A DNA stretch of 64,000 nt, from NCBI RefSeq assembly GCF_002278925.1, contig NZ_NCJH01000006.1, positions 1-64,000 on the forward strand, written 5' to 3'. The notes beneath the pieces were generated by a model. That model did no database searches and was not told where the DNA came from. It saw only the letters and a program-made list of their open reading frames with translations. This document shows positions 1 to 50,556 of this stretch, piece by piece. The stretch comes from Polaromonas sp. 39-63-25. GTDB taxonomy: Bacteria > Pseudomonadota > Gammaproteobacteria > Burkholderiales > Burkholderiaceae_C. Made by a program: the position numbers and the translations under genes. Numbering within the stretch: position 1 is the first letter of the stretch; every line of letters starts with the position of its first letter.

Positions 1-103
1 CTCGACAAAAGCGGGGTCTCGCTCGAACTCGCCTTCGGCTCAGACAATCGCGAGCCCTGATCCGCTTTTGCCTGCGCTCCTCGGCCCAGCCCGACGGGTT
101 GGG
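1..103 (-). repeat. Structured dispersed repeat, inverted copy A (cut by window start)
   Basis: Read on the minus strand, this segment aligns along its whole length with 201-300. The shared blocks include GCCGAGGAGCG, GGATCAGG, GCGATTGTCTGAG and GCGAGTTCGAG. It is therefore a head-to-head partner of copy B. Its internal stem arms are AAAAGCGG and CCGCTTTT, whereas copy B uses different bases that still pair. The window begins inside the element, so its outer end is not visible. A short open frame ending in TGA at 58-60 is explained by this repeat and is not called as a gene. Confidence 0.75.
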
Positions 104-134
104 AGAAATACAAATACCAATACCAATTCGAGGA

Positions 135-163
135 GGCGAGGACGCGCTTTGCGCGTCCTCGCC
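135..163. repeat. Perfect 13-bp stem-loop between inverted repeat copies
   Basis: Arms 135-147 and 151-163 are perfect reverse complements around a TTT loop. A hairpin in the same relative place (5184-5210) precedes the other plus-oriented repeat copy. It shares the inner GACGCGC but has a different outer stem, so both sides changed together. It has no T-tract and follows no gene, so it does not look like an ordinary terminator. Confidence 0.7.
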
Positions 164-200
164 GGAGCCCGACTGCGTACCCGAACCCGCTCCCGACCCC

Positions 201-440
201 ACCACCCTTCTGGCTGCGCCGAGGAGCGGAGGTCCAGCCGGATCAGGACGGGCGATTGTCTGAGCGAAGCGAGTTCGAGCCCGGCCCCGGCTGGACCGAG
301 CACCGCAGGTTGCCCCCGTAGCGCAAGCGAAGGGGGTCGCAGACAGCAGGGTCGCCTTTCTTTTGCTTCCTTTTCTTTGGCGAGACAAAGAAAAGGGAGT
401 TGCCGCCGGGCAACCCCCGGCTTGCTGGCCAACCACCAAA
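201..440 (+). repeat. Structured dispersed repeat, copy B
   Basis: It starts with ACCACCC and contains successive hairpins. The stems are 232-241 with 287-296 (10 bp), CCCCC 313-317 with GGGGG 332-336, 369-379 with 386-396 (11 bp, GCGAGA loop), and a CCGGG/CCCGG hairpin near 406-420. The same order of blocks recurs at 5241-5465. No convincing protein is encoded. Similar sequences are, to my knowledge, common between genes in Comamonadaceae, but this could not be searched here. The stretch 441-592 up to the next gene shows nothing else recognisable. Confidence 0.75.
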
Positions 441-592
441 GCTATCCACACCAAAAAACCAATCACCCATCAGCCAGATATTCACAACGATAGAGTCCCC
501 ACCCCAAACCCGCAGCAGCACCAGGCTCCCCCGGCAGTTACCATGTCGCCACAACAACACTGCCGGCAGCCTGATGCCGAGGAGGGAAATTC

Positions 593-1900
593 ATGCAACG
601 CATCGTCATCGTCGGCGGGGGCGCAGGCGGGCTGGCGCTGGCCACGCAACTGGGCAAGCGTCTGGGCAAAAGGGGCCAGGCTGAAATCACGCTGGTGGAC
701 GCCGCACGCACCCATGTGTGGAAACCGCTGCTGCACCAGCTGGCGGCCGGCAGTTTTGACACCCACGCCGAGGAGATCGAGTACCTGGCCCAGGCGCGCT
801 GGAACCATTTCAAATTCCGCCTTGGCCGACTGGAGGGTGTGGACCGTGCCGCCAAGACCGTGCAGCTGGCCGCCAGCCACGACGAGGCCGGGCGCGAGAT
901 CACGCCGGCGCAGCAGCTCGGCTACGACACGCTGGTGATTGCGGTGGGCAGCCAGACCAACGACTTCGGTACCCCGGGCGCGGCCGAACACACCATCAAA
1001 CTGGACAGCCCGCAGGCGGCCAAACGTTTCAACGACCGCCTGATCAATGCCTGCATACGCGCACAGGCCGTGCCGCGCAGCGCCGGCAGCGGCCGCCTGA
1101 CGGTGGCCATTGTCGGCGGCGGTGCCACCGGGGTGGAACTGGCCGCCGAGCTCCATGCCTCGGCCAAGGTGCTGGCCAACTACGGCTTTGACCACATCCA
1201 CCCGGAAAAGGACTTGCAGATCGTGCTGGTCGAAGCGGCGCCGCGCCTGCTTGCGCAACTGCCCGAGCGGCTGAGCGACGCGGCCCTGCGCGAACTGCGC
1301 AAGCTGGCCATCGAGGTGCACACCAATGAAAAAGTGGTGGAAGTCACCGCGGACAGCCTGAAGATGGCGAGCGGCAAGGTGATTTCCTCCAGCCTCTCGG
1401 TCTGGGCGGCCGGCGTGAAGGCAGCGGACTTCCTCAAAACCCTGGGCGGCGATGCCCCCCTGGAGACCAACCGGCTCAACCAGCTCGTCGTCAGCGGCAA
1501 CCTGCAGACCACGGATGCCAGCATCTACGCCTTCGGCGACTGCGCCGCCTGCCAACAGCCCGACGGCACCTGGGTGCCGCCGCGCGCGCAGGCCGCCTAC
1601 CAGCAGGCCATGTACCTGGTCAGGGCGCTGCCGCGGCTGCAGCGCGGCGAGCCGGTTTCCCCCTTTGTGTTCCGGGACCAGGGTTCGCTGGTGTCGCTGT
1701 CGGAGTATTCCTCGGTCGGCAGCCTGATGGGCAGCCTGACCAAAGGCAGCTTTTTCATCGAGGGGCAACTCGCCAAGATCATGTACTGGGCGCTGCACAA
1801 GCAGCACCAGCTGGCGCTGGGCGGCTGGAAAAAAACCGCCCTGATCACGCTGTCGGAAATGATTGACCGCACCTATCGTCCGCGCATCAAGTTGCACTGA
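593..1900 (+). CDS. ndh: Type II NADH dehydrogenase (NDH-2)
   Basis: This 435-residue flavoprotein is expected to sit on the inner face of the membrane and pass electrons from NADH to quinone without pumping protons. The N-terminus has the FAD-binding GGGAGG loop (residues 7-12). A second Rossmann motif, VGGGATGVELA, lies near residues 175-185 and should bind NADH. A YAFGDCA motif near residue 312 is the usual second FAD contact. The C-terminal part is the amphipathic membrane-docking region typical of the family. A GAGGAGGG ribosome site precedes the ATG by about 7 bases, fixing the start. It appears to be a single-gene unit behind a repeat-filled intergenic region. Length and motifs fit NDH-2 well. 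Confidence 0.93.
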   Translation: MQRIVIVGGGAGGLALATQLGKRLGKRGQAEITLVDAARTHVWKPLLHQLAAGSFDTHAEEIEYLAQARWNHFKFRLGRLEGVDRAAKTVQLAASHDEAGREITPAQQLGYDTLVIAVGSQTNDFGTPGAAEHTIKLDSPQAAKRFNDRLINACIRAQAVPRSAGSGRLTVAIVGGGATGVELAAELHASAKVLANYGFDHIHPEKDLQIVLVEAAPRLLAQLPERLSDAALRELRKLAIEVHTNEKVVEVTADSLKMASGKVISSSLSVWAAGVKAADFLKTLGGDAPLETNRLNQLVVSGNLQTTDASIYAFGDCAACQQPDGTWVPPRAQAAYQQAMYLVRALPRLQRGEPVSPFVFRDQGSLVSLSEYSSVGSLMGSLTKGSFFIEGQLAKIMYWALHKQHQLALGGWKKTALITLSEMIDRTYRPRIKLH

Positions 1901-1939
1901 TAATCAGACCACATCCCCATCAACCCACCGGAGAACGCC

Positions 1940-2083
1940 ATGGCAAAAGGACAGCAAAACAAGGACAAGATGGTCAAGAAGCCCAAGAAGGACACGGCCC
2001 CCCCGAAAGCGGTGTCGCCCGATGCGGTGCGCCCGACCGTGGTCACGCAAGTCCCCCTGCGCGGCAAGCTGAAAAACAAATAA
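1940..2083 (+). CDS. Small highly basic conserved protein (47 aa)
   Basis: This short frame runs from ATG 1940 to TAA 2081-2083, just downstream of ndh, with a GGAGAACGCC ribosome site directly before the ATG. The product is lysine-rich (MAKGQQNKDKMVKKPKKD at the start, RGKLKNK at the end) with no hydrophobic segment. Short basic proteins beginning MAKGQ with KKPKK motifs occur in many proteobacteria as conserved hypotheticals. Their function is unknown to me, and nucleic-acid association is only a guess from charge. The ribosome site and the clean stop support a real gene. Confidence 0.65.
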   Translation: MAKGQQNKDKMVKKPKKDTAPPKAVSPDAVRPTVVTQVPLRGKLKNK

Positions 2084-2105
2084 GGCAGTGCCCTCTTTAC
2101 CAGCC

Positions 2106-2193
2106 AGGGCCGCGGAACCGGCTTTGCCGGGCCGCAGGCGCAGCGCCCCCTCGGGGGGCAGCGAAGTACACGAAGTGACGAGCGTGGGGGCTC
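2106..2193 (+). repeat. GC-rich REP-like element, copy 1
   Basis: The block holds CCGGC-TTT-GCCGG, then a C-run/G-run palindrome, then an AGTACACGAAGTGACGAGCG segment and a terminal GTGGGGGCTC. The same series of blocks recurs at 50448-50556. The first stem differs by one compensated base pair between the copies (CCGGC/GCCGG versus CTGGC/GCCAG). It ends one base before the ATG of the next gene, so it supplies that gene's 5' leader. Confidence 0.75.
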
Positions 2194-2194
2194 C

Positions 2195-2700
<506 letters not shown>

Positions 2701-2726
2701 TCAAGGTACTTGCTGATGGGTCCATC

Positions 2727-3428
2727 ATGAATGCAGGTCGGCCGGAGATCCATGACCTTGCAGGTAATGACGGTGCGAGTGGCTTCGACCTCGTCCATGC
2801 CGATGCCGCCGTGCTGGTGCTGGTCAAACCCGCCGGCCTGCTGGCGGTGCCGGGCAAGGGCGAGGACAAGCAGGACTGCCTGAGCGCACGCGTCCAGGCA
2901 AGCTACCCCGACGCGCTGGTGGTGCACCGGCTGGACATGGCGACCTCGGGCCTGATGTTGATGGCGCGCAGCATCAGCATCCAGCGTGCCCTGGGCGCGC
3001 TGTTCGAACGCCGCGAGATCCACAAACGTTATATCGCCGTGGTCGATGGCCGGCCCACGGCCACACCCGGTGCCGGTCCCGGGGGCTGGAGCCTGATCGA
3101 CCTGCCCATCGTGGTGGACTGGCCGCGCCGGCCGCTGCGCATCATCGACGCCGAACGCGGAAAGGCCAGCCAGACGCGCTGGCGGGCCGTGGCGTTTGAC
3201 GCGCCCAGCCAAAGCACCCGCGTGGAACTCGAGCCCGTCACCGGCCGCTCGCATCAGTTGCGTGTGCACCTGCAGGCACTGGGCCACCCGATTCTGGGCG
3301 ACAGGCTGTATGCGCCCGAGGACGTGCAGGCCCGCGCGCCCCGGCTGCTGCTGCACGCCTGCGCGCTGGGTTTTGTGCACCCGGTCAGCGGCATGGCCCT
3401 GCAGTTCGACAGCCCGGCGCCGTTCTGA
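2727..3428 (+). CDS. rluA: Pseudouridine synthase RluA
   Basis: RluA makes pseudouridine at position 746 of 23S rRNA and position 32 of some tRNAs in E. coli. The protein (233 aa, close to the E. coli length) has the catalytic-aspartate motif HRLDMATSG near residues 71-79 and the KRYIAVVDG strand. It also has DLPIVVDWP and the C-terminal TGRSHQLRVH and LGHPILGDRLYAP blocks that distinguish RluA from RluC/D. There is no S4 domain, as expected for RluA. It is divergent from the c-subunit gene with 38 bp between starts, so the two share a promoter region. Confidence 0.92.
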   Translation: MNAGRPEIHDLAGNDGASGFDLVHADAAVLVLVKPAGLLAVPGKGEDKQDCLSARVQASYPDALVVHRLDMATSGLMLMARSISIQRALGALFERREIHKRYIAVVDGRPTATPGAGPGGWSLIDLPIVVDWPRRPLRIIDAERGKASQTRWRAVAFDAPSQSTRVELEPVTGRSHQLRVHLQALGHPILGDRLYAPEDVQARAPRLLLHACALGFVHPVSGMALQFDSPAPF

Positions 3429-3493
3429 CCAGGGCGCCGGGCCGGAACTTCAGCGCCTGCTTCGCATCCCATGCTGATCACCGGAGACCGTCG

Positions 3494-4141
3494 ATGCGCC
3501 CTGCCTCACCACCCCTTTCCCCCGCCGCCGTGCTGCGCCGCCGCACCGTGGCTGCCGCCCTGGTGGCAGCGCCTGTGCTGTGGCTGGGCCCGCGCGCCCA
3601 GCCGGCCGCCAGCCGCCGCGCCACACCGGCGCAAACCGAAGGACCGTATTACCCGGTGGTCCTGCCCCGGGACAGCGACCATGACCTGCTGCGCAACGGG
3701 GCGCTCAATTACCCCGAAGGGCAAAGCGCCTGGATCGAGGGCAGCGTCAGCGACCTGGCCGGCAAACCCGTGGCCGGCGCGCAGGTCGAGATCTGGCAAT
3801 GCGACCACGCTGGCCACTACCATCACCCCGGTGACGGCGACCGGGCCGACCGCCGCTTCCAGGGCTTTGGCCGGGTGACAGTGGATGCCGAAGGCCGCTA
3901 CCGCTTTCGCACCCTGCGCCCGGTGGCGTATGCCGGGCGCACACCGCACATCCACGTCAAGGTCAAACTCGGACAGCGGGAACTGCTGACCACCCAGCTG
4001 TATGTGGCCGGCGACCCCGGCAATCCGCGCGACTTCCTGTGGCGCAGCCTGGGCGAGGCCGACCGGGCTGCCCTGACCGTGCCCTTTGCGCCGGGCAGCG
4101 ACGGCCTGCAGGCCCGCTTTCCCATCACTCTGGCCGCCTGA
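3494..4141 (+). CDS. Secreted intradiol ring-cleavage dioxygenase-like protein
   Basis: This 215-residue protein belongs to the protocatechuate 3,4-dioxygenase/catechol 1,2-dioxygenase family of non-haem Fe(III) enzymes. An arginine-rich start followed by a hydrophobic stretch and ATPAQTEGPYYP suggests Tat or Sec export. The family core is visible: WQCDHAGHYHHP carries a Tyr ligand, and the VAYAGRTPHIHVKV block carries the second Tyr and both His ligands. Canonical cytoplasmic dioxygenases lack a leader, so this is one of the exported homologues whose substrate is unknown. No aromatic pathway genes are adjacent. Start chosen at ATG 3494, preceded by GGAGACCGTCG. Confidence 0.82.
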   Translation: MRPASPPLSPAAVLRRRTVAAALVAAPVLWLGPRAQPAASRRATPAQTEGPYYPVVLPRDSDHDLLRNGALNYPEGQSAWIEGSVSDLAGKPVAGAQVEIWQCDHAGHYHHPGDGDRADRRFQGFGRVTVDAEGRYRFRTLRPVAYAGRTPHIHVKVKLGQRELLTTQLYVAGDPGNPRDFLWRSLGEADRAALTVPFAPGSDGLQARFPITLAA

Positions 4142-4191
4142 ATCGCCGGGACACGGAACGGCGTCACCGTTTGTCGGTAACATTGCCAGCC

Positions 4192-4947
4192 ATGACCCAA
4201 CACCTATTTATCCTGACCGGCGCCTCCCGCGGCATGGGCCTGGCCATGGCGCGCAAGCTGCTCATGCCGGGCAACACACTTCTGTGCATTTCACGCAAGG
4301 CCAATGAGACGCTGGCCGCGCAGGCCAAAATCGCCGGCACGCCGCTCCTGCAGTGGACGCTGGATCTGGCGCGAAGCGCGGACGCCAGTGCGCGGCTCGA
4401 ACAATGGCTGCGCGAGCAGGCCCACGCCGGTTTTTCCAGCGCCGTGCTGATCAACAATGCCGGCATGATTCCGCGCATCGGCCCGCTCAGCGACGCCGAC
4501 GCCGACGACCTGCGCCTGGGGCTGCGTGTCGGCCTGGAAGCACCCATGCAGCTGACCGCGGCTTTTCTGCGCGCCACCGAAAGCTGGCCGGCGCGGCGCA
4601 AGGTGCTCAATATTTCGTCGGGACTGGGACGCAAGGCCATGGCCTCGCAGTCCATCTATTGCGCGGCCAAGGCCGGCATGGACCACTTCACGCGCTGTGT
4701 GGCGCTCGAAGAAGCGCTCAAGCCCAACGGCGCAGCGGTCTGCTCGCTCGCGCCTGGCGTGATCGACACCGACATGCAGGTCCAGCTACGCAGCGCCGAC
4801 GCGTCGGCCTTTCCCGACCAGCACAACTTCATCAGCCTCAAGGACAAGGGCCAGCTCACGTCGCCCGACGAAGCCGCCGCGCGCATCCTGGCCTACCTGG
4901 CCCGGCCGGACTTTGGCAGCCAGCCGGTGGCGGATGTGCGCGACTGA
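4192..4947 (+). CDS. Short-chain dehydrogenase/reductase (sepiapterin/benzil-reductase-like)
   Basis: This is a 251-residue classical SDR using NAD(P)H. The TGASRGMG cofactor loop is at residues 9-16, NNAG near residue 89, and a Ser followed by YCAAK (Tyr-x3-Lys) near residues 161-165. APGVIDTDM is the usual PG motif. The longer open frame extends upstream into the dioxygenase gene, but ATG 4192 places the Rossmann strand (HLFILTGAS) at the N-terminus as in other SDRs. The substrate cannot be told from sequence. A single-gene unit is likely, followed by a long repeat-rich gap. Confidence 0.85.
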   Translation: MTQHLFILTGASRGMGLAMARKLLMPGNTLLCISRKANETLAAQAKIAGTPLLQWTLDLARSADASARLEQWLREQAHAGFSSAVLINNAGMIPRIGPLSDADADDLRLGLRVGLEAPMQLTAAFLRATESWPARRKVLNISSGLGRKAMASQSIYCAAKAGMDHFTRCVALEEALKPNGAAVCSLAPGVIDTDMQVQLRSADASAFPDQHNFISLKDKGQLTSPDEAAARILAYLARPDFGSQPVADVRD

Positions 4948-4963
4948 TTCCAGAACGCTACGG

Positions 4964-5012
4964 CTTTGATAGCTGCTTACGCTTTCAAGCCATTGGCTGA
5001 GGGCCTATTTCG
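4964..5012 (+). repeat. TAGCTG-type dispersed repeat, copy 1
   Basis: This matches the pattern TTTGATAGCTGC-(T)-CGC, about 8-12 variable bases, GGGCT/GGCTGA, GGCC and a T-rich end. Eight copies are recognised in the window (4964, 5549, 13029, 15184, 18844, 22478, 31661 and 54839). This one follows the SDR stop codon by 16 bases. Confidence 0.7.
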
Positions 5013-5183
5013 TTCGCAAGCTCTCGGCGGGAATTTTTTCGGCGTCACGCTGCGTCTGTGGTCCGCTTTGGACAGTAGGCGCAACTCCCCACGCCCTCCC
5101 CTCGCCCCGCTGGGCGATGGCGGGGAGCTTCATTTGGCCGCGTGTGCTACCGCCGCGTGCAAACATCACGGCCGCGTAAGACC

Positions 5184-5210
5184 GACATGACGCGCTTCGC
5201 GCGTCATGTC
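5184..5210. repeat. Perfect 12-bp stem-loop ahead of structured repeat copy C
   Basis: Arms 5184-5195 and 5199-5210 pair perfectly around TTC. It occupies the same position relative to the downstream repeat as the 135-163 hairpin. The inner GACGCGC/GCGCGTC is shared, while the outer ACAT/ATGT differs but still pairs. Confidence 0.7.
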
Positions 5211-5240
5211 TCCCCGCATCCGTTGCCGCATTCTTGCCCT

Positions 5241-5465
5241 ACCACCCGTCGGGCTGGGCCGAGCAGCGCAGATGGAGGCGGGATCAGGGCCGCAGTTGTC
5301 CGAGCGCAGCGAGTTCTGCGGACCCCCGCCGCAATCGAGCAGCGCAGGTTGCCTGGAGCGAAGCGGAAGGACCCAGACAGTCGGGTCGCCTTTTCTTTGG
5401 TGACTTTCTTTTGGCGACACAAAAGAAAGTTACTTGCCGCCGGGCAACCCCCGGCTTGCAGGCAA
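5241..5465 (+). repeat. Structured dispersed repeat, copy C
   Basis: This has the same order of blocks as 201-440: ACCACCC, GGGCTGGGCCGAGCAGCG, GGATCAGG, GAGCGCAGCGAGTTC, GCGCAGGTTGCC, GGGTCGCCTTT and GCCGCCGGGCAACCCCCGGCTTGC. The AT-rich hairpin is ACTTTCTTTTG (5403-5413) with CAAAAGAAAGT (5420-5430), against CCTTTTCTTTG/CAAAGAAAAGG in copy B. The differences are matched on both arms. Around it, 4948-5646 holds no credible gene. Besides this element it contains two TAGCTG-type repeats and the 5184-5210 hairpin. Confidence 0.78.
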
Positions 5466-5548
5466 ACTGCAGCGCTTCAAAAAAATGAGTAGTGAGCAAA
5501 CACATGGATTCCGGATCACGTCCGGGATGACAGCCTGAAAGATGGGTT

Positions 5549-5607
5549 GCTATAAACTTAATAGCTGTTCGCGCCCACCGGGTATGGGCTACAACCCGAT
5601 TTAATGC
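5549..5607 (+). repeat. TAGCTG-type dispersed repeat, copy 2
   Basis: It reads TTGCTATAAACTTAATAGCTG, then TTCGCGCCC, a spacer, GGGCTACAACCCGATTTAATG. The block order is that of the other copies, with the longer 5' TTGCTAT-AAT extension also seen in reverse at 54839-54897. It sits 39 bp beyond the 3' end of the uspA gene. Confidence 0.65.
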
Positions 5608-5646
5608 CAAATCCGGCAAGATCAGACAGTCCCCCGAGCGAAGGAC

Positions 5647-50428: not shown

Positions 50429-50447
50429 TCCAGCTCTCGATCCAAGC

Positions 50448-50556
50448 AGGGGCCGCGGGTCTGGCTTTGCCAGCCCGCAGGCGCAGCGGCCCCCTTGGGG
50501 GGCAGGGAGCTACACGCAGTGAGCGACCGTGGGGGCATTAGCATCACCGTGGGGGC
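50448..50556 (+). repeat. GC-rich REP-like element, copy 2
   Basis: Second copy of the 2106-2193 element: GGGCCGCGG, CTGGC-TTT-GCCAG, CCGCAGGCGCAGCGGC, a C-run/G-run palindrome, CTACACGCAGTGAGCG and GTGGGGGC. The terminal CACCGTGGGGGC block is partly duplicated, with a GCATTAGCAT spacer. It abuts the ettA stop codon. Confidence 0.78.

Follow-up and report, generated by a model that had tools for sequence, protein, structure and literature searches.

A dispersed repeat of Gammaproteobacteria that very likely folds into a triple-helix pseudoknot

At the left end of a 64,000-nt stretch of contig NZ_NCJH01000006.1 from Polaromonas sp. 39-63-25 (hereafter the window, which is the start of contig C31 in a 4.83-Mb draft of 54 contigs and whose first base already lies inside a copy) is a repeat whose hairpin stems differ from copy to copy while both arms still match, raising the question of what keeps the arms matched and what the fold is for. 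The initial annotation had proposed either selection for structure or the copying of one arm onto the other, and had considered a non-autonomous mobile unit, an RNA, or a nucleoid or replication site as the identity of the element. The three copies it described are real, as a covariance model (CM R1) built from 26 own-genome copies matches 1–85, 218–421 and 5258–5455 (the last two were in the training set, the first was not), although the limits of 201–440 and 5241–5465 given for two of them are slightly wide. Every stem it named is present on direct reading of the sequence, including the preceding hairpins at 135–163 and 5184–5210, which are perfect and have both arms matched. Three features had escaped it: a pyrimidine block changes in step with the purine arm of the AT-rich hairpin (TTTCTTTT–AAAGAAAA in one copy versus TTTTCTTT–AAAAGAAA in another), a TCGCC upstream of this block pairs with the hairpin loop, and the first two copies are the two halves of a single inverted unit.

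The AT-rich hairpin of each half (S2) consists of a pyrimidine arm (Y2), a loop and a purine arm (R), with the pyrimidine block (Y1) upstream of it. Y1 is the antiparallel complement of R in only 41 of 217 copies; read in parallel, it matches R in 193 of 217 under strict scoring, where shuffles reach at most 105, and in 204 of 217 once the G at the end of R is disregarded. Some loci of one alignment (A2, described below) were fetched with a pattern fixing part of Y1, Y2 and the stem S1 that TCGCC forms with the loop, and that selection did not act on the own-genome set, on a scan with a Y1-less pattern or on the class-survey loci. In the own genome Y1 matches R at 35 of 35 sites (shuffles at most 26), and the Y1-less pattern, applied to 369 genomes, finds sites in 5 of them (reversed control 0); in the four besides the own genome (G000), all 15 inspected of the 19 sites have a matching Y1.

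S1 was scored in 315 of 406 unique copies, namely those with an AT-rich hairpin of at least 8 Watson–Crick (WC) pairs and a loop of 5–7 nt (6 nt in 309 of the 315). With the register set by Y1, 1364 of 1575 S1 pairs are WC compared with a maximum of 1117 in 1000 shuffles, and in the 110 copies without GGCGA the count is 373 of 550 compared with a shuffle maximum of 273. Ten fully complementary types are seen at least twice: TCGCC/GGCGA (189 copies), CGGCC/GGCCG (13), TGTCC/GGACA (8), TGGCC/GGCCA (6), TGTGC/GCACA (5) and, more rarely, TGCCC/GGGCA (4), TATCC/GGATA (3), CCTGC/GCAGG (3), CCACC/GGTGG (2) and CGCGC/GCGCG (2). Conversely, when the register is set by S1 alone (unique in 281 of the 315 copies), the bases of Y1 follow those of R by the Hoogsteen code, with A to T in 1567 of 1628 cases (96%), G to C in 300 of 325 (92%) and T to G in 9 of 10. 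All seven layers are matched in 254 of the 281 copies (shuffle maximum 95) and in 59 of the 78 with divergent S1 (shuffle maximum 27), and at R position 8 an A faces T in 237 of 246. G opposite a T–A pair is the solution of the pyrimidine-motif triplex for that inversion. Within the second half-type, two copies (L198 and L217) have CTCTTTT/CTTTTCTC/GAGAAAAG in their three strands where most have CTTTTTT/CTTTTTTC/GAAAAAAG, and another (L202) looks like an intermediate, its hairpin being of the new form and its Y1 still of the old one.

The order of the parts is S1, directly followed by Y1 (parallel to R from the S1–S2 junction), a short turn (often GGTTA) and Y2. S1 and S2 both show covariation, and the bases of loop 1 are those that the Hoogsteen code expects opposite the purine strand of S2; these features place the fold in the class of triple-helix H-type pseudoknots. 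The 3′ part of each half is very likely a real fold of this class, as judged from covariation, in which Y1 would occupy the S2 major groove in the pyrimidine motif over about 7–9 layers of U.A-U, C+.G-C and occasionally G.U-A (with T for U if the strand is single-stranded DNA, ssDNA).

Compensated change extends to the other hairpins. RNAalifold predicts 54 pairs from the 26 own copies, 18 of which are changed on both sides, and stem A, the freest-varying stem, occurs with 43 different arms among 71 class-wide copies, 455 of 497 pairs being WC (92%), compared with a mean of 183 and a maximum of 218 (44%) in shuffles; a second set of 145 copies gives 894 of 1015 compared with a shuffle maximum of 529. 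These sets are the copies having both anchors (71 of 139 and 145 of 238), with offsets picked once per set for best pairing. Our alignments comprise 150 of 159 matches from 100 loci (A2, about ten edge loci omitted), 137 of 137 matches from 83 loci (A3, overlapping own loci omitted) and 150 of 154 matches from 100 of 107 loci (A4, L271–L377), and a further one (A5) was used solely for comparing orthologous pairs. Stem A, S1 and the third strand, the three helices put to the test, all covary far more than shuffles do, and selection for structure, the first of the two causes initially proposed, is supported.

G-U pairs outnumber A-C mismatches 45:4 in stem A (42:4 among distinct arm pairs), 14:3 in S1 and 247:14 at the first break of S2, and pair column 156/187 of the own copies reads U-G 13 times, G-U 7 times and U-A 6 times. 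This excess implies that selection acts on one single strand. RNA folding gives z-scores of –3.99 and –3.20 for two plus strands (the window copy being –3.20), each equalled by none of 200 shuffles; for the minus strand of the window copy the z-score is –1.47, and 17 of 200 shuffles do as well. By covariation, the strand that reads outward in each half thus folds as a single strand, and this bias disfavors a nucleoid or replication site acting as double-stranded DNA. Such a site, working through a cruciform, H-DNA, gyrase, or nucleoid or replication arrest as considered for BoxC, strikes us as quite improbable: an intrastrand DNA triplex is possible and BoxC arrests DNA polymerase in vitro, without an in vivo effect (cited in PMC4666352), but G-U far exceeds A-C on one strand, unlike in sites that fold both strands, and H-DNA has no need of the S1–loop pairing.

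The second proposed cause, in which template switching or gene conversion keeps the arms matched without selection, draws some support from orthologous copies, whose module differences resemble conversion. At the site of the 5258–5455 copy, the own genome and a relative (G004) differ on both sides of two stems while the tail module differs as a block, and in two orthologous pairs among those listed (G000 L006/G032 L434 and L039/G004 L426) the differences run through all three strands of the triplex together. However, base-paired copying makes only direct or inverted copies, so that the mirror-type agreement of Y1 with R, G opposite T included, cannot have arisen from it, and the G-U excess and the persistence of matched arms across 59 family labels also speak against it. 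As a full account, arm-to-arm copying is largely refuted; conversion between copies and selection are likely both at work.

Several observations weigh against the fold or limit how far it can be read. The first G of the loop strand also belongs to the closing pair of the hairpin, leaving four of the five pairs as S1's own, and at R position 9, which is mostly G, the code fails: Y1 has G there in 196 of 207, and the triplex stops or changes at that point. The nine T-to-G cases represent three R types in five genomes and only three families (f27, f186 and f82). The G-U excess of S2 is weaker on distinct contexts (22 versus 8), a generic helix scan for G-U and A-C is uninformative (104 versus 60; shuffled 49 versus 30), and the data are compatible with both RNA and ssDNA, so that the RNA identity considered at the outset is possible and ssDNA is too. 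Shuffles keep the phylogeny, which makes independent changes fewer than the copy counts, the covariance model scores sequence as well as structure and so biases copies towards its training form, and the apparent swapping of modules at orthologous loci means that some paired changes may be conversion.

BLAST of the 5170–5470 copy against its own genome returns 52 rows, 4 of which are only opposite-strand matches of the head palindrome. The own genome holds 7 head-to-head inverted pairs and otherwise solos, which prevail; subtypes A and B form a pair around a centre hairpin (as at 1–440 of the window), and solo A copies carry another left module (as at 5087–5455). Among the matches listed, head-to-head inverted pairs account for 22 of 24 in G433, 14 of 16 in G436, 10 of 11 in G024 and 14 of 21 in the distant G172, and most of the closely examined genomes have as their unit two halves of ~200 nt each, inverted and joined head to head. 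A covariance-model search of eight other genomes gives 0, 11, 17, 18, 20, 27, 37 and 57 matches, the zero coming from a single-contig genus-mate (G448) and the 57 from G031, so that the search in other genomes suggested by the initial annotation does reveal a dispersed family. Class-wide, 96 of 370 genomes (own included) match at an E-value of 1e-3 or better, under 59 family labels, and phylum-wide 54 of 397 match, 53 within the class and one weakly (E 6e-5) outside it, a single match to be read with the share of the 397 outside the class not being shown. The genus BLAST and the class and phylum surveys scored 12 or 6 candidates per genome and their copy numbers are lower bounds. Genera with exact pattern matches, among the matches listed, are Variovorax, Acidovorax, Polaromonas, Rhodoferax, Thiobacillus, Dechloromonas, Gallionella, Methylobacter and one Pseudomonas, and the carriers of this intergenic repeat include many bacteria of soil and water. 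There were no matches in phage records or in E. coli genomes, and five plasmid records match; three of these (H3–H5) are Pasteurella multocida records of 260–325 kb in which the match is only 57 nt around the AT block.

Ten units of G172 and one of a genus-mate (G289), when aligned, have common ends and differing flanks. Terminal inverted repeats are seen in these copies, but the motif and its reversed control also match elsewhere in G172 (22+18 versus 16+14), so the motif search says little. The site of the 5258–5455 copy is flanked by SDR-like and UspA-like genes (named by eye). Among relatives, the element of G004 adjoins the UspA-like gene at a contig end and G017 has an internally deleted remnant; the gap between these genes is only about 10 and 45 bp in G009 and G005, and a covariance-model search of the wider gaps in G014, G021, G024 and G019 finds no element. 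Of 83 elements, 37 lie in convergent, 43 in tandem and 3 in divergent gaps, compared with 26, 113 and 47 control gaps of at least 50 bp (convergent versus divergent, Fisher p 2e-9); genes were called with a codon model trained on the window. This count pools own, genus, pattern-found and some other-family loci and omits any element with no called gene to its left or right. Units thus sit at the 3′ ends of genes, and among relatives their occurrence is patchy, orthologous sites being without them. The non-autonomous mobile unit among the initial suggestions is supported by this picture of bounded, dispersed units with patchy spread and orthologous sites without the element, and we regard mobile-repeat status as likely.

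Two G433 pairs with a long spacer (L250 2272–3312 and L251 2158–3198) contain a near-identical IS110-family-like transposase gene (by eye). In both it has entered the head of the B half at one and the same point, adjoining CTTCTG; these are 2 of 11 fetched G433 pairs, as judged by spacing. We rejected the idea that the long spacer is an internal gene of the element, both cases being IS110-like insertions; their identical site in two pairs indicates that the element acts as a target site.

What would such a unit gain from its fold? One answer is that the host gains: the repeat would be an RNA 3′-end cassette whose triplex knot, resistant to nuclease or polymerase, stabilizes or ends mRNA. The bias towards convergent gaps (37 of 83) and the scarcity in divergent ones (3 of 83), the strand-specific fold with its G-U pairs, and inverted pairing that covers both directions are all in its favor, since a transcript entering an inverted pair meets the antisense half and then the distal half in folding orientation, so that both convergent genes could end in a knot. 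Set against this, presence is patchy (0 matches in G448, 57 in G031) and solo copies in tandem gaps have no strong orientation preference (10 versus 6), and we consider a host role doubtful. The reading we prefer, at a probability of about 0.6, is that of a mobile but non-autonomous repeat, found in Gammaproteobacteria (as defined by GTDB, with the former Betaproteobacteria included), that needs its fold for spread; assigning the fold to propagation and not to the host is a matter of judgement. A mobilizing factor would recognize the folded single strand, RNA or ssDNA, while the unit is being copied, a copy losing its fold would stop spreading, and the placement at 3′ ends would be where insertions harm least. 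More tentatively, the family may be a class-wide mobile RNA or ssDNA that spreads only when an undescribed protein reads its triple-helix pseudoknot of the telomerase type.

Could that protein be a RAYT (a Y1 transposase, PF01797), the enzyme type that moves REP sequences and their BIME clusters? Inverted pairs of two subtypes, the 3′-end bias and single-strand hairpins are shared features, and RAYT genes are commoner in element genomes (77 of 96 versus 178 of 274 others, Fisher p 0.007). However, RAYT is near-universal in the genus (60 of 61 genomes), including some in which BLAST found no element, the halves are far longer than REPs, and 19 of the 96 element genomes, under 16 family labels, have no detected Y1_Tnp domain (genomes at least 90% complete, in which a few genes may be missed). 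The sole RAYT of the own genome does not adjoin a copy, and none of 8 element or REP-like strings occurs within 1.5 kb on each side of it. RAYT as an obligate partner is not supported, the RAYT link raised in the initial annotation is weak at best, and a RAYT-moved REP/BIME remains an unlikely identity.

Mobility driven by the fold has further points to answer. The lone own-genome RAYT is away from the copies and RAYT is undetected in that fifth of the element genomes; no transposase or reverse transcriptase was linked to the element, candidates besides RAYT not having been searched systematically. No target-site duplication is evident by eye in the 11 aligned copies of G172 and G289, and convergent placement is compatible with a host 3′-end role as well.

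Among known systems, Rfam at gathering thresholds gives no hit in the window or in 20 diverse loci, and 4 weak hits in window 1–5600 (E up to 1) avoid the copies. Searches of the open-access literature found no account of the element and none of six conserved strings, an earlier description in subscription papers being possible; as far as our searches show, a telomerase-like triple-helix pseudoknot is new for a bacterial repeat. In the H-type pseudoknot of telomerase RNA, the pyrimidines of loop 1 form U.A-U triples along the major groove of stem 2. The arrangement of S1, Y1 parallel to R and a turn into Y2 is that of this pseudoknot, but telomerase RNA is single-copy and eukaryotic, while the element is bacterial, dispersed in many copies, and also has C+.G-C layers and, rarely, G.U-A ones. 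REPs are 20–40 bp palindromes with an associated transposase. The element shares with REP/BIME its dispersed structured intergenic units, alternating orientation and inverted subtype pairs (compare PMC8266576 and PMC2817692), and differs in its ~200-nt halves, as opposed to 20–40 bp, and in that the own genome's RAYT is not flanked by the same palindromes.

A close parallel is BoxC/PIT, an E. coli intergenic chromosomal repeat of which a single strand can form an intrastrand triplex, with a strikingly similar organization into two subtypes and five inverted A+B pairs in E. coli K-12, and reported absent from transposons, phages and plasmids (accessible text of PMC4666352). BoxC is 34–37 nt long and forms a G/C-rich purine-motif (class II) triplex according to the same text; by comparison, the element is of the pyrimidine motif (class IV order, Y1-Y2-R), A/T-rich, pseudoknotted and set within a ~200-nt half. 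That text counts class IV motifs at 4% of hits, and we found no class IV repeat family described in it. The miniature inverted-repeat transposable element (MITE)-like repeats of P. fluorescens, such as R200 (320 bp) and R26 (352 bp), are similar in size range and, for several of their families, in a tail-repeat-tail placement (PMC2718517); one Pseudomonas contig matches the element, and R200 and R26 are possible relatives.

Few triple helices are known in nature, and proof of them is difficult; hundreds of copies in dozens of families here provide three-strand covariation, through which evolution itself makes the base-triple code readable. A fold required for movement would imply a yet unseen mobilizer, and no other repeat family is known to spread through such a fold; the family would also supply triplex variants in very large natural numbers, among them G opposite T–A inversions. 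If it acts in mRNA, the repeat would be a widespread two-way 3′-end element. Both readings are testable in culturable Comamonadaceae that are not pathogens.

Table 1. Positions of the repeat units and their parts within the window.
Feature	Position	Strand	Evidence
Subtype A half-element, cut by contig start	1–85	–	CM R1 87.9 bits, E 4.5e-22
Stem A arms of copy 1–85, AAAAGCGG / CCGCTTTT	7–14 / 62–69		Direct sequence reading
Inverted-pair centre: variable hexamer-like arrays either side of perfect hairpin	104–200	.	Sequence; own-copy alignment
Centre hairpin GGCGAGGACGCGC-TTT-GCGCGTCCTCGCC, perfect	135–163	.	Sequence
Subtype B half-element	218–421	+	CM R1 215.3 bits, E 6e-56; copy part of model training
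Stem A, subtype B, TCCAGCCGG / CCGGCTGGA; encloses stem B and inner hairpin	233–241 / 287–295	+	Sequence, covariation
S1 5′ strand TCGCC	352–356	+	Pairs with 379–383; compensated S1 types across families
Y1 third strand TTTCTTTT	357–364	+	Parallel Hoogsteen match to purine arm AAAGAAAA, 387–394
AT-rich hairpin S2: Y2 CCTTTTCTTTG 369–379, loop 380–385, R CAAAGAAAAGG 386–396	369–396	+	
S1 3′ strand GGCGA	379–383	+	G379 common to S1 and S2 closing pair
Tail, two mutually exclusive hairpins TTGCC/GGCAA and GCCGGG/CCCGGC	399–421	+	Sequence and variants; RNAalifold picks GCCGGG/CCCGGC
Solo-form left module replacing B half: GC-rich hairpin, CATTTGGCCGCGTGTGCT...GTGCAAACAT	5087–5183	+	Also in solo copies and relative's remnant
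Head hairpin GACATGACGCGC-TTC-GCGCGTCATGTC, perfect	5184–5210	.	Sequence
Subtype A half-element of solo unit	5258–5455	+	CM R1 198.7 bits, E 1.6e-51; copy part of model training
S1 5′ strand TCGCC	5386–5390	+	Pairs with GGCGA 5413–5417
Y1 third strand TTTTCTTT	5391–5398	+	Parallel match to AAAAGAAA, 5421–5428
S2 hairpin: arms ACTTTCTTTTG 5403–5413 and CAAAAGAAAGT 5420–5430, with Y2 5404–5413 and R 5420–5429; extension GTGAC/GTTAC including G-U pair	5400–5433	+	
Tail hairpins; likeness among copies fades shortly downstream	5434–5455	+	

The tail motif, allowing up to 3 mismatches, has 2 matches in the window and none in 100 shuffles. Just past the tails of many own copies, as at 5504–5531 in the window, there are often further palindromic repeats, a second (GGATCCCGGATCAAGTCCGGGATGAC type) and a third (TTCGACAGGCTCAGCCCGAACGG type). 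In the hexamer arrays (RRRTRC / GNNYYC by eye, at 104–133 and 170–205 and in own copies) the letters vary and a six-base rhythm is kept. Some copies have the AT-rich block partly swapped for another hairpin-rich stretch, GCGAAGTGAGCGAA...CCCCGCGCG and similar (L052 1109–1386, L038 1358–1638, L257 1495–1756, L259 1778–2036 and L260 1844–2095). Elsewhere in the window, 2090–2158 and 50433–50501 form a separate GC-rich, hairpin-like repeat pair with 77% identity over 69 nt. Finally, long open frames span the element on both strands (40–493 and 5142–5619 of the window) and several contig ends of the own draft sit inside copies, so the repeat probably breaks assemblies and causes spurious hypothetical-protein calls.

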